From positions 1-21,581 of the IMG/VR virus record IMGVR_UViG_3300010396_000423: DNA of 21,581 nt. One strand, 5' to 3'. Source of the stretch: a virus. Positions 7,811 through 15,486 of this stretch are shown here, piece by piece. How positions within the stretch are numbered: position 1 is the stretch's first letter; the number at the start of each line of letters is the position of its first letter. The notes beneath the pieces were generated by a model. That model did not search any database. It was not told the origin of the DNA and was given only the letters and a program-made list of their open reading frames with translations. A program made the translations under genes and the position numbers.

Positions 7811-8144
7811 CGAACAGCGTTACGAGACTTGCGGAGACTATTGGGAGGACGGTTCGTGCGTCTATTTCCGCACGTCGAGACTGTCGCATCCGAAACATGA
7901 CTGGCTTCTATTCCTGCACGAGTTCATCGAATGTTTCCTGTGTAAATTCGCAGGGATTGCCATCAAGGATATCGACGCTTTCGATCTCGCATACGAGGGC
8001 GACGGAGAGCCGGGAATGGATAAAGCCGCGCCTTACCACTGGCAACATCGCATGGCCGATATCGTGGAGCGCGCAGCCGCATTTGCTTTGGGAGTAGATT
8101 GGGTTGCCTACGATCGCGAAGTCGAGTCACTTCGCAAACCCTAA
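7779..8144 (+). CDS. Phage protein with HEFIE motif
   Basis: GAAGG lies six bases before the ATG and supports this start. The 121-residue product resembles a recurrent phage protein: an opening of the type INWQVIPHSEQRYETCGDYW, a middle HEFIECFLCKFAGI, then FDLAYEGDGEPG. The spaced His-Glu and Glu (HExxE, residues about 47-51) resemble metal-binding helices but do not match the full HExxH peptidase motif, so enzyme activity is not claimed. It is the last gene of the left + strand block. Its final 18 bases overlap the end of the reverse ATP-grasp gene. Its role in the phage is unknown. Confidence 0.7.
   Translation: MLINWQVIPHSEQRYETCGDYWEDGSCVYFRTSRLSHPKHDWLLFLHEFIECFLCKFAGIAIKDIDAFDLAYEGDGEPGMDKAAPYHWQHRMADIVERAAAFALGVDWVAYDREVESLRKP
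8116..8135. terminator. Possible bidirectional hairpin at convergent gene ends
   Basis: A perfect 7-base inverted repeat (GCGAAGT, 6-base loop CGAGTC, ACTTCGC) lies exactly where the + strand HEFIE gene and the - strand ATP-grasp gene converge. Neither side has a T-run, so it is not a classical intrinsic terminator. It also lies within coding sequence of the + gene and spans the stop of the - gene. A transcript-end hairpin is possible; a chance palindrome is the alternative. Confidence 0.3.
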
Positions 8145-9353
8145 CTTCGCCGCTTTCTCGATTTCTTCTTTCACGTCCTCCAGCTTCCCTTTGTCGCAAT
8201 CGAGTCTATCGGCTTTGATCGCTGTGCAATTTGCGGTCGCCATATCGAACCCCTCTTGCAAATCCCCGAATCCGATCGCGGATCCAAACTCTGCCATTTC
8301 CGAATCGTGCGGGATGACCCAAACTTTGCCATCGATCATGCAATAATTGTGGAACGTGTAGCCATCGAGGCTTGGCACATCGACTTCGAGATAGTGATGG
8401 CTCACCCAATCGGACTTCATTACGACCTCGAACAACCAATCACCGGCGAAGTCAGGAGGAACCGGCGTGCCATCGCCGAGCCCTTTCATTACCGCCGACA
8501 AGTTACGGCACGCCGCCATTAGGACGCCACCGGGGGGCGATGGCACGCGGCAGGTCGCGTCGGTAAAGAACACCTGCCCGTTGGGGAGCACGCGCATTTC
8601 GTTGGAGAAAAAGCCTCGATATTGGTGTTTGCCGAAATACTTGCCCAGCGCCACGACCACCTTCTGCACTTCCTTCGGTAACCTTTTGGTGGACTCACAG
8701 ACATACCCCCAATAGCGGGAATCTTTCGTCTCCGCGCCGACGACGAATGGCTCGGCCAGCGCCCCATCACACCACCACCCATCGATACCGATTTCAAATG
8801 CGTCGGGTATGGCGTCCTCGATGATGAATCGCATCTTGGCGCCTAGCGGCCCGAGGCGGCTCTTGAGGTCGTCGTACTCGGTCAGCCAATCGCGGGCGCT
8901 CCGCGTCTCCATGTCGCCGCGAAACACGCTCACTTTGATGTATGTATCGGGATGCTCTTTCAGATAGTCCTTGACGTGCTCGATGCCCTCGATTTCGACC
9001 GACATAATCACGTCCAGGTCGTGCTCGGTCAGAAACTCCTTCAAGTGCCAGCGGTCGGTTTCGAGCTGGGCGGCATCGCCAGCGCCGATGGTCGGAATCC
9101 CGGCCTTGCGCGCCAGCATTTCATAATCGGTGAGATAGAGATCGGGAACCACCACCAGATCGGGCTTGTCCATGAGCGCGCGAATTGGCTCATTGACGCG
9201 TTCTACGCCGGGGATGCCGAGGCCAACTGCCTGCTCTCGGGAGAGCGGGAACGAATTGCCCCAAGTGGAGAAATATCGAACGTCGTAGGACTTGGCGAGA
9301 TGACGGGCCACGTCGGGGAATAGACCGTTATCGATGACGAGGGCTGAGGGCAT
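8127..9353 (-). CDS. ATP-grasp superfamily enzyme
   Basis: I start it at the ATG at 9353 because AAGGTG lies six bases before it; a GTG at 9362 would add three residues. The 408-residue product has a pre-ATP-grasp-like N-terminus (VIDNGLFPDVARHLAKSYDV, DLVVVPDLYLTDYEMLARKAG). ATP-grasp-like elements follow: GAGDAAQLETDRWHLKEFL (residues 90-108), YIKVSVFRGDMET (138-150), IIEDAIPDAFEIGIDGWW (177-194) and a terminal metal-site region NGQVFFTDATCRVPSPPGG (258-276). In glycinamide ribonucleotide synthetase-like enzymes the last element carries Glu and Asn; here Asp and Thr/Cys occupy it. The family ligates a carboxylate to an amine or thiol with ATP. Substrate unknown. It is the only reverse gene in the structural core, suggesting independent acquisition or regulation. 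Confidence 0.75.
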   Translation of the reverse strand: MPSALVIDNGLFPDVARHLAKSYDVRYFSTWGNSFPLSREQAVGLGIPGVERVNEPIRALMDKPDLVVVPDLYLTDYEMLARKAGIPTIGAGDAAQLETDRWHLKEFLTEHDLDVIMSVEIEGIEHVKDYLKEHPDTYIKVSVFRGDMETRSARDWLTEYDDLKSRLGPLGAKMRFIIEDAIPDAFEIGIDGWWCDGALAEPFVVGAETKDSRYWGYVCESTKRLPKEVQKVVVALGKYFGKHQYRGFFSNEMRVLPNGQVFFTDATCRVPSPPGGVLMAACRNLSAVMKGLGDGTPVPPDFAGDWLFEVVMKSDWVSHHYLEVDVPSLDGYTFHNYCMIDGKVWVIPHDSEMAEFGSAIGFGDLQEGFDMATANCTAIKADRLDCDKGKLEDVKEEIEKAAKLGFAK

Positions 9354-9359
9354 AAACTT

Positions 9360-9365
9360 CACCTT
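9360..9365 (-). promoter_or_regulatory. Shine-Dalgarno site deciding the ATP-grasp start
   Basis: On the reverse strand AAGGTG lies six bases before the ATG at 9353. The alternative GTG start at 9362 overlaps this site and so has no room for it, which favours the shorter protein. Confidence 0.6.
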
Positions 9366-9368
9366 GCG

Positions 9369-9396
9369 TTGACAGTAGCACGGCGTTTGATATATG
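9369..9396 (+). promoter_or_regulatory. Promoter-like motif, copy 1 (ahead of the portal operon)
   Basis: TTGACA at 9369-9374 and TATATG at 9391-9396 are separated by 16 bases. The spacer (GTAGCACGGCGTTTGA) is nearly the same as in a second copy at 12425: 23 of 26 bases match from TTGACA through TATA. Conservation inside the spacer is more than a host sigma-70 promoter needs, so a phage-specific promoter or a promoter with a bound regulator is likely. It lies between the divergent ATP-grasp gene and the first gene of the portal operon. Confidence 0.65.
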
Positions 9397-9410
9397 GCTA
9401 AATCAAACGC
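9383..9410. repeat. Inverted repeat over the -10 of copy 1 (possible operator)
   Basis: GCGTTTGA at 9383-9390 and TCAAACGC at 9403-9410 form perfect 8-base arms around a 12-base centre that contains the TATATG -10 element. A dyad in this place could bind a repressor or activator dimer, or form a hairpin near the start of the transcript. The second promoter copy lacks the downstream arm, so the dyad is specific to this divergent region. Confidence 0.5.
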
Positions 9411-9436
9411 TGTTCTCGTGCAATGGAGCGATGACT

Positions 9437-9634
9437 ATGCCTCGCGGCTCAAACGGTTCCGAAGAAATTTCCCGCATCCGGTCTGGAGAAGATTCGATTC
9501 GCAATGGTGATCGTCAGAGCGGCAAACGCGGCTCCGGCGTCGGCATCGATGGCTTCGGCCCCGGCAATAAAAAGGGGTTTGGCTCTGGCTCGATGCAGAA
9601 GAACCCCTCGCGGATGAAAAAGCCGAGCTTCTAA
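9437..9634 (+). CDS. Small Gly/Ser/Lys-rich basic protein
   Basis: I chose the ATG at 9437 because GGAG (9425-9428) is eight bases before it; an ATG at 9431 would be only two bases from that site. The 65-residue product is low in hydrophobic residues and rich in Gly, Ser, Arg and Lys (SGKRGSGVGIDGFGPGNKKG), so it is probably disordered. It ends GSGSMQKNPSRMKKPSF, which loosely resembles the end of another small protein at 15967. It is the first gene after promoter copy 1 and touches the next gene (TAA then ATG). Capsid interior or DNA binding is possible; function unknown. Confidence 0.6.
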   Translation: MPRGSNGSEEISRIRSGEDSIRNGDRQSGKRGSGVGIDGFGPGNKKGFGSGSMQKNPSRMKKPSF

Positions 9635-9964
9635 ATGGCTGCTGGCGTCACCGTCGTAACGAACGGCAGGACGTGGACGATCGCCTATGCGACATCTTCG
9701 TCGAACACGTTGCCGTACACGCTTTGCACGTATGATCTGATTCCGAAGCGGATTGTCTGTGTCGGTTCCGCGAGCGTGGTAGCTGGCGGCACGGTCATCA
9801 TTCAGAGCCAACCCACTGGCGGCACCGCGACCGACGTTTACAAGCAGATCGCCGCAGCCGCCGACTTCGATCCTACCGAGCAACGCCCGACGACTTCATG
9901 GTCAGGCCCGATAGTCATCACACAATTTGATGTGGGCATGGAAGTTCTGATCGACTTGGTTTAA
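9635..9964 (+). CDS. Small beta-rich probable structural protein
   Basis: This 109-residue protein starts directly after the previous stop. It is predicted to be rich in beta strands (GVTVVTNGRTWTIAYATSSS, IVCVGSASVVAGGTVIIQ, GPIVITQFDVGMEVLIDLV). There is no signal peptide or catalytic motif. Its position just before the portal operon core and its composition suggest a minor virion or decoration protein. I do not recognise the family. It ends with TAATG, sharing one base with the next start. Confidence 0.6.
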   Translation: MAAGVTVVTNGRTWTIAYATSSSNTLPYTLCTYDLIPKRIVCVGSASVVAGGTVIIQSQPTGGTATDVYKQIAAAADFDPTEQRPTTSWSGPIVITQFDVGMEVLIDLV

Positions 9965-10338
9965 TGTCTGAGCTACGCGCCACTATCAGCTTTGAGCTTG
10001 ACGGCATTCCTCTCGCAGACATGCCGATCGTGCGCCGGTACATCGTGAACGAAGTATCGACGCAGATGAATATCGTGGCGGCGGCTGACAACGGCTCGAC
10101 CTACCATCCGATCGCGGCAGCAATCATGCCCACTCTTGGCGTGATCTGCCTGACGATGGATCAGGCGCTCAATCTCAACATCAACCAGAATACTCCGCTG
10201 CCGATGAACGCGGGGGGTCTGGTGCTGATCATGGGTTGCGCGCTCGCGCAGGGCACGCCCACCGACAATATCGAGTACAACAACCCTGCCGTATCGCAAT
10301 CCGCCAATCTTGGCATCCCCGTTCTCGGGGGCACTTAA
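9964..10338 (+). CDS. Small probable virion protein ahead of the portal
   Basis: The 124-residue product opens with strands (LRATISFELDGIPLADMPIV), then a segment RRYIVNEVSTQMNIVAAADN, and a final Asn/Gly-rich part (PMNAGGLVLIMGCALAQG). I have an impression of similar short beta-rich proteins in environmental phages, where they accompany head genes, but cannot name a family. It is coupled to the previous gene by a TAATG overlap and is followed two bases later by the GTG start of the portal. A head decoration or minor structural role is inferred. Confidence 0.6.
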   Translation: MSELRATISFELDGIPLADMPIVRRYIVNEVSTQMNIVAAADNGSTYHPIAAAIMPTLGVICLTMDQALNLNINQNTPLPMNAGGLVLIMGCALAQGTPTDNIEYNNPAVSQSANLGIPVLGGT

Positions 10339-10340
10339 AC

Positions 10341-12206
10341 GTGCGAACGATATCGATCGGCGAGGGCAAGCCGCTCAAGGTTACGATCGATCAGCGCGCG
10401 CGCCTCAAAGACTTCCTCGAAAACGAGCACAAGAAGGCGCTCCAAGCCCGTGCTGGCTGGGAGAATATGTGCCGCACGGCGATTCGCATGTATCAAGGGA
10501 CGCCGCCCGACCATCAACGCTGGCTGCCATTCGAGAATGCTCCGGTAATCGAGGTTACGATCGGCGCGATGGCCTGCGATACGGTCATCTCCCAAGCCGA
10601 AGATTTGATTTTTCAGGTCAAACCGCCCCTGACCATCCGCTCGCGTAAGGGCGATTTCGACGATACCGCGGATGCCGTGCAGGATTTGGTCAACCACGGC
10701 GTCGAGTCGGGATTCTGGAACTTCGAGCCGGGAGTCAAGGAAGGGCTGATCGACCAGGTGCAGCTTGGCATGGTCGTCGGCTACATCCCGTACACCAAAA
10801 CGGTGCGCAAAACCGACGTGCGCGAGGTCGTTACCTTCGGCCCCAAGATACATTGTCTCGCGCCGGAAGATTTCATCATCCCGCCGAACGCCACGAAGGA
10901 CATTCAAGTCTGCAAATTCGCCACGATGCGCATGTGGATGGGTACGAAGGAACTGAAACTTCGCGGCCGACTCAATAACTGGACGGTTGATGACGCCAGC
11001 GCCCCAGATTCGTCGAGCGTAGTACGCGCCGACCGCCTCCGTACCGCTGGCGTGAGTGGTGGCGGCCTTGATACCAAGCCGCCCGTCGTGATTGGCGATA
11101 CCTTTTGCTACTTCGATATCGACGACGACGGCATCGAAGAAGATTTGGAAGTGATCTGGAACATGACCTCGGGGAACATCCTGAAAGTCATGTACAACCG
11201 CTACGATTCGCGACCGTTCGTGCTGGAGTGCTACCAGGATCGCGCGCACACAGCGTTTGGTCTCGGCGTACTCGAAATGATGATCCCCTACGAGCGCGAA
11301 GTCACCGAAATCCACAACAATCACATCTGGAACATGATGATCGCCAACACGAAGGTCTATCAGGGGCCGGCCACGGGGATGCAAGAGACCACGGCGATCT
11401 ATCCCGGCAAGTACATGATCAACGATGAAGGCCCCGGTGGCCGTATCGAGGTCATGGACATGGGCACGGTCAATGGCACGGCGATTCAGGCGGAGTCCGT
11501 CGTGACTGCGATGGCGCGCGAGCGCGTCGGTACGACTCAGCTATCGGCACCGATCCGGTCGTCGAGTCGAACCCCCGGCATTTCGATGCTCTCGATGATG
11601 CAACAGGCCAACCGGCGCTTCACGCATCCGTTTAACAACATGCGGAATTTCGGCGCTCAGGTCGTGATGCACTGTCTCTATCGCCTACAGGAACAGGTGC
11701 GCGCGGGCAACAAGGACGTAAAGAAGAAGCTCAAAGAAATTCTGGGCGACGACAAGGCCGAATTGGTCATCGACCTGTTCAAGGCGAGTGATGTGGAATT
11801 GACCGATGCGCTCGATGTTCAACTCACTGCGTCGAGCGTCAGCGTCAATCGTGAATCCGACCGGCAGAACATGGTCATGCTCGCGACCCAGATTTACCCG
11901 GTTTACTTCTCGGCGATGAAGGAATTGGCGCAGTTTATCGCGCAGCCGCCGTTCCCCGGCGCCGACAAGGTGGCGAAGCAGGCCGAGAAGATGATCAACA
12001 AATTCTTCGGCAAGGTGCTCAAGACCTTCGATCAGATCAGCGATGTGCGGAGCCTGCAAATCGACCTCGACCAGATTCAGCCGGTGATGCAACAGCTTGG
12101 CATGGAGCAGACGCCGGGGATGCTCAATGGCATGGTCGGCGCGATGGGCGGCCCGCAAGGCCAACCGCAACCGGGCGGCGCACCGCCGGGAGTCCCGATT
12201 CAGTAA
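10341..12206 (+). CDS. Portal protein
   Basis: The start is GTG at 10341, two bases after the previous stop, with GGGGGC about ten bases upstream; an in-frame ATG at 10236 would be inside the preceding gene. The 621-residue product has the layout of podovirus portal proteins. A helical N-terminus is followed by a beta region and the segment DIDDDGIEEDLEVIW at about residues 258-272. The wing/stem region follows with ECYQDRAHTAFGLGVLEMM and PYEREVTEIHNNHIWNMM (about 298-335). The C-terminus is long, helical and Gln/Gly/Pro-rich. Portals form a twelve-subunit ring at one capsid vertex and pass DNA during packaging and ejection. Context fits: a small gene, a scaffold-like gene and the capsid gene follow. 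Confidence 0.85.
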   Translation: MRTISIGEGKPLKVTIDQRARLKDFLENEHKKALQARAGWENMCRTAIRMYQGTPPDHQRWLPFENAPVIEVTIGAMACDTVISQAEDLIFQVKPPLTIRSRKGDFDDTADAVQDLVNHGVESGFWNFEPGVKEGLIDQVQLGMVVGYIPYTKTVRKTDVREVVTFGPKIHCLAPEDFIIPPNATKDIQVCKFATMRMWMGTKELKLRGRLNNWTVDDASAPDSSSVVRADRLRTAGVSGGGLDTKPPVVIGDTFCYFDIDDDGIEEDLEVIWNMTSGNILKVMYNRYDSRPFVLECYQDRAHTAFGLGVLEMMIPYEREVTEIHNNHIWNMMIANTKVYQGPATGMQETTAIYPGKYMINDEGPGGRIEVMDMGTVNGTAIQAESVVTAMARERVGTTQLSAPIRSSSRTPGISMLSMMQQANRRFTHPFNNMRNFGAQVVMHCLYRLQEQVRAGNKDVKKKLKEILGDDKAELVIDLFKASDVELTDALDVQLTASSVSVNRESDRQNMVMLATQIYPVYFSAMKELAQFIAQPPFPGADKVAKQAEKMINKFFGKVLKTFDQISDVRSLQIDLDQIQPVMQQLGMEQTPGMLNGMVGAMGGPQGQPQPGGAPPGVPIQ

Positions 12207-12428
12207 ATGGCGAGCGCCGATCGCCTGATTTTCGCCTGTCGCGAAGATACTGCCGTACTCACCAGCCTGCGCGCGTGGCTCAATGAAGCCCGCGAAGTTC
12301 TCAAAGAACGCGCCATCAAAGAGGCCGACCGCGACGAGATTCTGAGGCTTCAAGGCGCGGCGGCGAACCTGCATAAATTGGCCGAATCGATTGCCCAAGA
12401 AGTGAAGGCCAAAAAGCATCCCGCTTGA
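12207..12428 (+). CDS. Small helical protein between portal and scaffold
   Basis: The ATG immediately follows the portal stop. The 73-residue product is almost all predicted helix with charged residues (LRAWLNEAREVLKERAIKEA, DRDEILRLQGAAANLHKLAE) and ends in a basic tail. Short helical proteins in this place, with an LQG-type segment, occur after portals in many phages, where they may help capsid assembly or the neck. No specific function can be assigned. The second promoter motif begins over its last four bases. Confidence 0.65.
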   Translation: MASADRLIFACREDTAVLTSLRAWLNEAREVLKERAIKEADRDEILRLQGAAANLHKLAESIAQEVKAKKHPA

Positions 12429-12452
12429 CAGTAGAACGACGTTCGATATAGA
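12425..12452 (+). promoter_or_regulatory. Promoter-like motif, copy 2 (ahead of the scaffold/capsid operon)
   Basis: TTGACA at 12425-12430 and TATAGA at 12447-12452 with the same 16-base spacing as copy 1; the spacer GTAGAACGACGTTCGA differs from copy 1 at three positions. It fills the only gap in this part of the operon. A sigma-70-type start would fall about seven bases after the -10, only a few bases before the ATG at 12462, giving a nearly leaderless transcript. Confidence 0.65.
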
Positions 12453-12461
12453 GCATTAGTT

Positions 12462-13343
12462 ATGCCCGACGAAAAGCCCAACGAAACGGCATCCAATCCC
12501 CAAGACGATAAACTCGCCGCTACGGTCGCTGCGGCTGTTACCGCTGGTCTCAAAACGGCGTTACCGGAAGCTATCAAACCGTTTGCCGATCAGATCAGCG
12601 GCGGTTCGATTCGTCGCGACGCCCCTGCGCCCCGACAGCAGATTCAGCCGATTGCCGACGTGAGCGAGGAGTCGATCGCGGAAGCGATGGCGGCGGGCGA
12701 TACGAAAGAAGTTACGCGATTGCTCAAGCAGCAACGCGCCGCGGATCGTCAACGAGCCGATCAAGAACTCGCGCGCATCACGTCAGCTGGTGGCGCGGCT
12801 TTTGGTTCCGTCTCGCGCATGGCGGCCGACAAGCTCCCCTACTACTCCGGCAAGTACAAAAAGCTAATCGACGAAAAGATCGAGCAGTTTCAGGCCAACA
12901 ATCCCGGCGTGATGATCACTCCCGACCATTACAAGGCCGCTCACGATATCGTAGTGGGCGAGAATATCGCCGACATTCAGGCGGCTGACCGCGAAGAGGC
13001 CATCCGCAAGTCACGCGAACCCGACCCGGCGCTACTGCCCAATGGCGGCCGTGTCGTCATCGAAGACGAAGAGAAAGAACCAGAAAATCTGGCTCAAGTA
13101 CTCGCTGGCGACTGGAAGAAGGAATTTCGCGTCAAGCAGCGCGCCGTTGGTGGCCGCAGCGATGACGAAGAATTGCGCAAACTCGACTATCGCGGCGGAC
13201 TCAAGGAGTTCGTACAGGCCCGCAAGCAGATGGACGCCATCGACGAAGAGACTTCGGGCAGCTTTGGCCTCGACCGCGATTGGACAGATGAGCAAGGCCG
13301 TCAAGGCCCGCGCGCCAACAAGGAAAAAGGAGCCTGGGTATAG
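12462..13343 (+). CDS. Scaffold-like protein
   Basis: The 293-residue product is highly charged and Ala/Gln-rich with long helices. Examples are KLAATVAAAVTAGLKTALPE near the start, EEVSEESIAEAMAAGD-like acidic helices around residue 70-80, VTRLLKQQRAADRQRADQEL, and acidic stretches such as VVIEDEEKEPENLAQVL near residue 200. This composition and its place between portal and capsid fit a scaffolding protein, which organises capsid assembly and leaves before DNA packaging. There is no protease motif. The Shine-Dalgarno match is weak, and promoter copy 2 ends only nine bases upstream. The stop overlaps the next start as TAGTG. Confidence 0.65.
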   Translation: MPDEKPNETASNPQDDKLAATVAAAVTAGLKTALPEAIKPFADQISGGSIRRDAPAPRQQIQPIADVSEESIAEAMAAGDTKEVTRLLKQQRAADRQRADQELARITSAGGAAFGSVSRMAADKLPYYSGKYKKLIDEKIEQFQANNPGVMITPDHYKAAHDIVVGENIADIQAADREEAIRKSREPDPALLPNGGRVVIEDEEKEPENLAQVLAGDWKKEFRVKQRAVGGRSDDEELRKLDYRGGLKEFVQARKQMDAIDEETSGSFGLDRDWTDEQGRQGPRANKEKGAWV

Positions 13344-14583: not shown

Positions 14584-15486
14584 ATGCCGGCCGTAACCAG
14601 CGCATTTTCAGACCTGCTCTCGACGAGGTTCCAGACCTACCTCGTGAACGTGGGCAAGGGATATCCCCGCCTCTGGCCTCGCTGGATCAAGAGCGTGGAC
14701 ATGGAGACCAACCCGTATATCTCATCGAAGATTTCGGGCATGGGGCAGCAGCCATATAAGCCGGAAGGCCAGCAGTTCGTTCCTGACCTGCCGATTCCGG
14801 GGCCGAACTTCCAAGTCACCGCGACTCCCTACGGGCAGTTATTCAGTGTGACTTGGGAAATGTGGCGCGACGACAAGTACGGCGTGATGGGCGAGATGTG
14901 GACTGACATGGGCCGGTCCAATCGCTTCCGGCAGGAAGTGCAGGCTTTCGCGACGTGGCCGAACAATGCCTTTTCGGTGGCAACCGGCTATGACAACGCG
15001 ACGCTCTACAATACCGCGCACGTTGACCTCGACGGCACCACGCAGGCCAACCGGCCGTCGCCCGATGTGACGCTCTCGCAGACGGCGGTACAGGCAGGGC
15101 AAGTCAACTTCGACCTGCTGAACGACGAACGCAGCCGCCCGCAGAACATGGCGGCAACCCGCGTGATGATTCATCCGAGCAATCGGTACGTCGCGCGCGT
15201 GCTGTTCGGTTCGAGCGGTCAGAGCGGGACAGCGGACAACGATACCAATTCGATCATCGAGGACGACCTGAGCTGGGGCGTCGTGCGATACATGGTGCGC
15301 ACTCAGGACTGGACGCTCTCGGCGCCGATGATGGAGTCGGACATAGAGTTCATGTGGCGCGACCGCCCGCGCGCGCGCACTTTCGACGACCCGTTTATCG
15401 AGGCCTCGGATCATACTGTCTATCAGCGGTTCGCTATGCGAATCGGTGATTGGCGCTGGACTTACGGTTCGAGCGTAGGTTTCTAG
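14584..15486 (+). CDS. Major capsid protein (Mu gpT-like, HK97-type fold)
   Basis: The 300-residue product matches the pattern of Mu-type head major subunits. An early aromatic/basic segment (YPRLWPRWIKSVDMETNPY) is followed by a strand and helix region VTWEMWRDDKYGVMGEMWTD continuing with MGRSNRFRQE (residues about 89-118). The conserved NNAFSVATGYDNATLYNTAH element is at 127-146. A Leu/Asn/Arg region follows (FDLLNDERSRPQNMAATRVM), and the domain ends with a Trp-rich strand (IGDWRWTYGS). The length suits the family without a large protease domain. A separate scaffold-like gene upstream fits independent scaffolding. The assignment is secure by motif pattern and operon position. Confidence 0.85.
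   Translation: MPAVTSAFSDLLSTRFQTYLVNVGKGYPRLWPRWIKSVDMETNPYISSKISGMGQQPYKPEGQQFVPDLPIPGPNFQVTATPYGQLFSVTWEMWRDDKYGVMGEMWTDMGRSNRFRQEVQAFATWPNNAFSVATGYDNATLYNTAHVDLDGTTQANRPSPDVTLSQTAVQAGQVNFDLLNDERSRPQNMAATRVMIHPSNRYVARVLFGSSGQSGTADNDTNSIIEDDLSWGVVRYMVRTQDWTLSAPMMESDIEFMWRDRPRARTFDDPFIEASDHTVYQRFAMRIGDWRWTYGSSVGF

Follow-up and report, generated by a model that had tools for sequence, protein, structure and literature searches.

Two putative host-type promoters with a shared spacer ahead of structural genes in an uncultured phage group

Structural gene region and two copies of a promoter-like motif

The element analysed here is a 26-base promoter-like motif that occurs twice beside the structural genes in a 21,581-nucleotide (nt) stretch of viral DNA (IMG/VR record IMGVR_UViG_3300010396_000423, positions 1 to 21,581; the whole stretch is called the window). 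The genes around it (Table 1) include those for a portal and a major capsid protein and, directly after the second motif copy, an open reading frame (ORF) which gave no match in a PHROG-type family search and which, because it lies after the portal gene and before the capsid gene, we infer to encode a scaffold-type protein. The motif, of consensus TTGACAGTAGMACGRCGTTYGATATA, lies at 9369-9394 as TTGACAGTAGCACGGCGTTTGATATA and at 12425-12450 as TTGACAGTAGAACGACGTTCGATATA, without a third full copy in the window, and the putative promoters formed by these two copies are referred to as P1 and P2.

An earlier sequence-only reading had placed both copies in the only sizeable plus-strand gaps, ahead of the portal and scaffold/capsid operons. 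The placement ahead of these genes held, although three small ORFs (the 65-amino acid (aa) gene at 9437, orf65, and two more) lie between P1 and the portal gene. The description of the gaps needed correction, as the first (9363-9436) is divergent, separating a minus-strand gene from the plus-strand genes, and the second is only 33 nt long with its TTGACA overlapping the end of the preceding ORF. The start of orf65 is about 40 nt past the P1 -10 element, and this spacing is kept in most relatives.

Table 1. Features of the motif region in the window, with leader regions from distant relatives
Feature	Position	Strand	Remarks
Divergent gene, 411 aa	8127..9362	-	ORF, no family; also in distant relatives
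Promoter P1 (putative)	9369..9396	+	-35 TTGACA 9369-9374; 16-nt spacer GTAGCACGGCGTTTGA; -10-like TATATG 9391-9396
Third partial copy ATTGCACGAGAACAGCGTTTGATTTA	9399..9424	-	19/26 to consensus; faces gene 8127-9362
First gene after P1 (orf65), 65 aa (MPRGSNG...)	9437..9634	+	ORF
Portal protein, SU10-type	10341..12206	+	PF23899 3.6e-21; phrog_1216
73-aa ORF	12207..12428	+	Stop codon overlaps P2 -35
Promoter P2 (putative)	12425..12452	+	-35 TTGACA 12425-12430; 16-nt spacer GTAGAACGACGTTCGA; -10-like TATAGA
Scaffold-type protein gene (role from position)	12462..13343	+	Directly after P2
Major capsid protein	14584..15486	+	PF25209 1.7e-11
Leader region, distant relative	L012:12290-12375		
Leader region, distant relative	L056:5080-5173		
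Leader region, distant relative	L057:2060-2146		
Leader region, distant relative	L058:5700-5827		
Leader region, distant relative	L059:5410-5495		
Leader region, distant relative	L013:12210-12281		

The claimed identity of the two copies (23/26) was borne out, and no other two 26-mers on one strand of the window agree at 23 or more of 26 positions. The number of such pairs expected per window by composition is 0.009, and 6 of 304 third-order Markov sequences contained any such pair anywhere; for two given 16-nt spacers, agreement at 13 or more of the 16 positions by chance has a probability of about 6e-6. The flanking sequences had been described as unrelated; with relatives included the likeness extends slightly beyond the TATA, as GATATA-n-RGC-www-A.

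In form, both copies resemble promoters of the host sigma-70 type. The -35 element matches at 6/6 positions and the -10 hexamers at 4/6 (TATATG and TATAGA) or, in relatives where P2 has TATAAG, at 5/6; the spacing falls within the 16-18 nt of this class, and P1 has a TG immediately before its -10 in the style of an extended -10. Promoter matrix scores compared with those of shuffled sequences gave p values of 0.04 (P1) and 0.025 (P2) in the window, and of 0.01 and 0 of 200 in the related genome G001. Both are also close to the alphaproteobacterial promoter consensus, CTTGAC-N17-CTATAT (PMC2573895), which may not be the consensus of this phage's host. Because the P2 hexamer ends 9 nt from the ATG of the scaffold-type gene (12462), as it does in close relatives, the scaffold mRNA is predicted to be nearly leaderless, with a transcript start that would fall about 2-5 nt before the ATG.

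Close relatives keep both copies, spacer included

A portal search identified IMG/VR contigs with 84-90% portal identity as close relatives, and in those holding the region both gaps again contain the motif, each copy, spacer as well, departing from the consensus at 0-2 positions. P1 was conserved in G001 (locus L003), G004 (L010), L004 and L007, and P2 in these loci plus further loci holding the region, including L009 and L035. As G001 (54 kb) and G004 (60 kb) have the portal region at both ends, each covers a whole genome unit of about 49.5 kb, and in both there are exactly two full copies per unit, at the same two places. The check for further copies proposed alongside the motif thus gave no additional full copy in the genome units of G001 and G004; both known copies are retained across the close relatives. 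When the IMG/VR collection was scanned with 18 fixed motif bases, matches were confined to this phage group; a version with 20 fixed bases gave 0 matches among 84,980 bacterial and archaeal species genomes, and no relatives of the portal were found in the phage-collection and prophage searches.

Conservation of the spacer was gauged against four-fold synonymous sites, an imperfect neutral yardstick, at which the window and G001 are 57% (portal gene), 64% (capsid gene) and 50% (scaffold gene) identical. Over the same pair, the segment from P1 through the inverted site (described below) is identical at 45/47 nt (p ~2e-9 at 57%), and each promoter retains 14 of its 16 spacer positions (~0.01 each), P1 and P2 having changed at two shared positions in the middle, 15 and 16. 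For L009, 13/16 spacer positions are retained in the second copy. Since it is slower to evolve than the four-fold sites, the shared spacer is probably under selection. Fixed spacers are not the rule in these phages, as a comparison putative promoter ending TGATATAGCTTGT, upstream of a small ORF in G001 (~35956, in L015) and G004 (~20658, in L018), has conserved -10 and downstream bases and a variable spacer.

A likeness of this kind could have arisen if an ancestor had copied one promoter over the other and the spacer had since been kept for promoter strength (through an extended -10, spacer shape or polymerase contacts), with no dedicated regulator. The likeness is confined to the promoter footprint, and the bases that tell the copies apart (position 11, C/A; position 20, T/C) are kept in all relatives, as an old duplication predicts. 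Yet a spacer left free should have drifted to the 50-57% of the four-fold sites, whereas 14 of 16 positions are kept per copy. Taken together with the observations on distant relatives and on the inverted copy given below, we regard copying and tuning as a minority but substantial possibility.

Most distant relatives keep the promoter position, with unrelated spacers

A capsid-profile search added relatives at 67-78% capsid identity and some at 36-41%, and the distant relatives compared here (L012, L013, L056, L057, L058 and L059) have portal identities of 54-57%. Before the scaffold gene these carry TTGACA (TTGACT in L058) followed at about 16-18 nt by a TA-rich -10, and across the 9 genomes compared the P2 homologues show TTGACA in 8, the exception having TTGACT; before orf65, most distant relatives have a TTGAC-type or TTTACA -35 and a -10 at a distance of about 40-50 nt to the ATG. 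Their spacers are unrelated to those of the window and to one another, and the two spacers inside one distant-relative genome are also unrelated, matching at 4-7 of 17-18 positions. Retention of the same positions with unrelated spacers indicates, at the level of sequence comparison, that the promoter position is old and that the spacer sequence is clade-specific, and it follows that a promoter at these sites does not depend on this particular spacer sequence. A position kept ahead of genes while the spacer is free is what is seen in host sigma-70-type promoters, and unrelated spacers at the same sites also favour a copied promoter that was tuned without a regulator.

The scaffold-gene leader of the distant relatives is 57-98 nt long and often ends in a hairpin (8-14 bp) at the start codon; the window's clade has no such leader. 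The leader of L012 folds far better than shuffled sequences (z -5.9), and that of L058 is like an intrinsic terminator, with a T run directly before the ATG. A search of Rfam with the leader hairpins gave no match, and their automatic alignment for covariation gave no consensus structure.

A third, inverted copy in the divergent gap

The third, partial copy lies in the divergent gap in inverted orientation and has no good -35. All relatives holding the region (L003, L004, L007 and L010) have the same core, GAACAGCGTTTGATTTA. That a copy without a -35 should have a fully conserved core is not explained by promoter strength alone, and this tells against duplication followed by tuning as the whole explanation. 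A strong minus-strand promoter for gene 8127-9362 was considered and rejected, there being no good -35 and no scores better than those of shuffles. The 411-aa product of this gene is 40-48% identical to its homologues in distant relatives and has an ATP-grasp-like look by eye only; Pfam and PHROG searches with it gave no match.

Together with P1, the third copy forms an inverted repeat, GCGTTTGAT-N10-ATCAAACGC, which is 9 bp in the window (shuffle p 0.006) and 7 bp in G001 (shuffle p 0.02). The copies might on this account be operators or an RNA element instead of a promoter pair, acting as repressor sites or as a hairpin in the divergent gap, as the repeat at P1 stands above shuffles and a GAAC-N3-GTTC dyad is present in P2. 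We consider this very unlikely: the hairpin is uncompensated in relatives, going from 9 bp to 7 bp, the P2 dyad is not significant, and TTGACA is the part that is kept across distant relatives, a pattern not expected of operators or an RNA element. An RNA hairpin at P1, found in the window and in weaker form in relatives, was rejected as a candidate, as was an operator dyad in the spacer, which was not above shuffles at P2, while the P1 dyads of distant relatives were not significant.

Comparison with phage polymerase, phage sigma and activator systems

From the conserved spacer, the sequence-only reading had suggested a phage-specific promoter served by a phage RNA polymerase, an alternative sigma factor or an activator. 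The promoter role gained support from the position kept in very different relatives, and the spacer is conserved beyond chance in the close clade, but the polymerase and sigma factor were not supported. The single-subunit RNA polymerase family (PF00940) was absent in G000, G001, G004, G005 and G006, with T7 as the positive control (9.9e-110), and searches for Sigma70_r4 (PF04545), Sigma70_r4_2 (PF08281) and relatives of phiEco32 gp36 gave nothing above cut-off, the lone sub-cut-off match being a 16-bit Sigma70_r4 match in G005. Among the PHROG families listed (25 of 58) for the 29 early-region proteins of G001 there was no sigma family.

Recognition of the entire 26-base motif by a phage polymerase or sigma factor would nevertheless have precedents. 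Low-copy, conserved, plus-strand intergenic repeats were what revealed the sigma promoters of phages 7-11 and phiEco32 (PMC4331800); the portal here is of the related SU10 type, and the late promoters of 7-11 are bipartite with 16-nt spacing (PMC8948821). A low-copy conserved motif before late structural genes is a further shared feature. The motifs of the phiEco32/7-11 type (tAATGTAtA; GTAAtg-16-aCTA; PMC4331800, PMC8948821) are themselves unlike TTGACA-16-TATA, a sigma gene is present in those phages and none was found here, and they have 6-8 promoters where this genome has two. Promoters of that class combine a motif unlike the host consensus with several copies per genome, and P1 and P2 show neither. 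T7-type promoters likewise consist of an uninterrupted conserved stretch of 20-30 nt ahead of late genes, but here the hexamers match host promoters, there are two full copies only and no single-subunit polymerase gene was found, even though G001 and G004 cover the whole genome unit. With hexamers near the host consensus and a spacer that is free in distant relatives, a dedicated phage polymerase or sigma factor appears unlikely.

The late promoters of Mu are activated by the protein C, and two of them, lys and I, share a 10-bp match (PMC4461284). Similarly to the putative promoters here, these are a few late promoters read by the host polymerase with extra shared sequence, and they illustrate how a single phage activator can coordinate such a set. 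The site of Mu C, however, is upstream of a poor -35 or overlaps it (PMC4461284), whereas the -35 here is perfect, the shared part is the spacer and no activator was identified.

Probable late promoters for the host polymerase, with a possible common factor

With the features considered together, we favour, at a probability of roughly 60%, the reading that P1 and P2 are late promoters of the host housekeeping polymerase whose shared spacer is most likely read by one common factor. The common factor most of all, but also the use of the host polymerase, the late timing and the positions of the starts, are inferred. Like host sigma-70/RpoD promoters, P1 and P2 have TTGACA, a 16-nt spacer, a TATA-type -10 (with TG in P1), gaps before operons and a spacer that is free in distant relatives; unlike such promoters in general, they have a spacer and discriminator that recur within a single genome and are conserved among its close relatives, and a -10 without the final T. 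As far as sequence comparison goes, they are best grouped with the host-type late promoters of phages, as a further example marked by a conserved spacer common to both sites.

By this mechanism, the host RNA polymerase with its housekeeping (sigma-70/RpoD-type) factor would read both promoters, with P1 starting the structural operon (small proteins, portal and onward) and P2 serving as an internal booster just ahead of the scaffold/capsid genes. The same spacer and discriminator stand at both promoters in this clade and, partly repeated and inverted, towards the divergent gene; a common factor (a small DNA-binding protein of phage or host, or a phage-modified host polymerase) would read the spacer and thereby switch the late promoters in concert. 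Such a trans-acting factor is our preferred explanation for the shared spacer, plausible but unproven, and duplication with intrinsic tuning is nearly as good.

Several points weigh against this reading. The -10 hexamers TATATG and TATAGA lack the final T, and a stricter promoter scan in which this T was required called neither P1 nor P2; the matrix scores of L056, L058 and L059 were weak or not above shuffles, and promoter support in these relatives comes from position and the -35 element. There are few independent lineages in the clade (the window, the G001/G004 group and L009). The GAAC-N3-GTTC dyad in P2 (4+4 bp) does not exceed shuffles and has a degenerate counterpart in P1, and no common regulator was identified for the shared spacer, a result that is in keeping with the absence of a regulator under duplication and tuning. 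The sigma searches were also profile-limited, the Sigma70_r4_2 profile having missed phiEco32 gp36 itself, and divergent sigma factors could escape them.

A more specific and more speculative form of the common factor, which we hold to be possible but doubtful, is a small phage protein that would read GMAC-NNN-GTTYGATWTA at P1, P2 and the inverted site, with a specificity particular to the clade, and would switch both late operons and the divergent gene while the host polymerase transcribes. Methyltransferases, QueC and an excisionase-like HTH_17 protein are among the early-region families listed for G001. The HTH_17 protein, whose gene precedes the terminase genes in G001 and G004 and which was not detected in G005 or G006, is by its presence alone a candidate for such a regulator.

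The comparison maps the putative promoters of the structural region in a group of uncultured phages, and close and distant relatives together show which parts of the motif are promoter and which are a lineage-specific extra. A near-leaderless scaffold mRNA is predicted in one clade where relatives carry a structured leader. If the spacer proves to be the site of a regulator, these phages would offer a compact model of capsid timing in phages without their own polymerase.

Other observations on the related genomes

Two further proteins were noted in G001. One, of 109 aa (L015:13484-13813, plus strand), consists mainly of the C-terminal DNA-binding domain of DnaA (PF08299, 1.9e-23), with the rest of DnaA lacking. 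The other (L015:5629-6090, minus strand) is of the QueC type (PF06508), a hint of 7-deazaguanine DNA modification. In both G001 (L003/L006) and G004 (L010/L011), the two portal-region ends differ slightly in content, which suggests that mixed strains were joined in one assembly, and one of the two G001 copies has an extra 108-aa ORF between the portal and scaffold genes.

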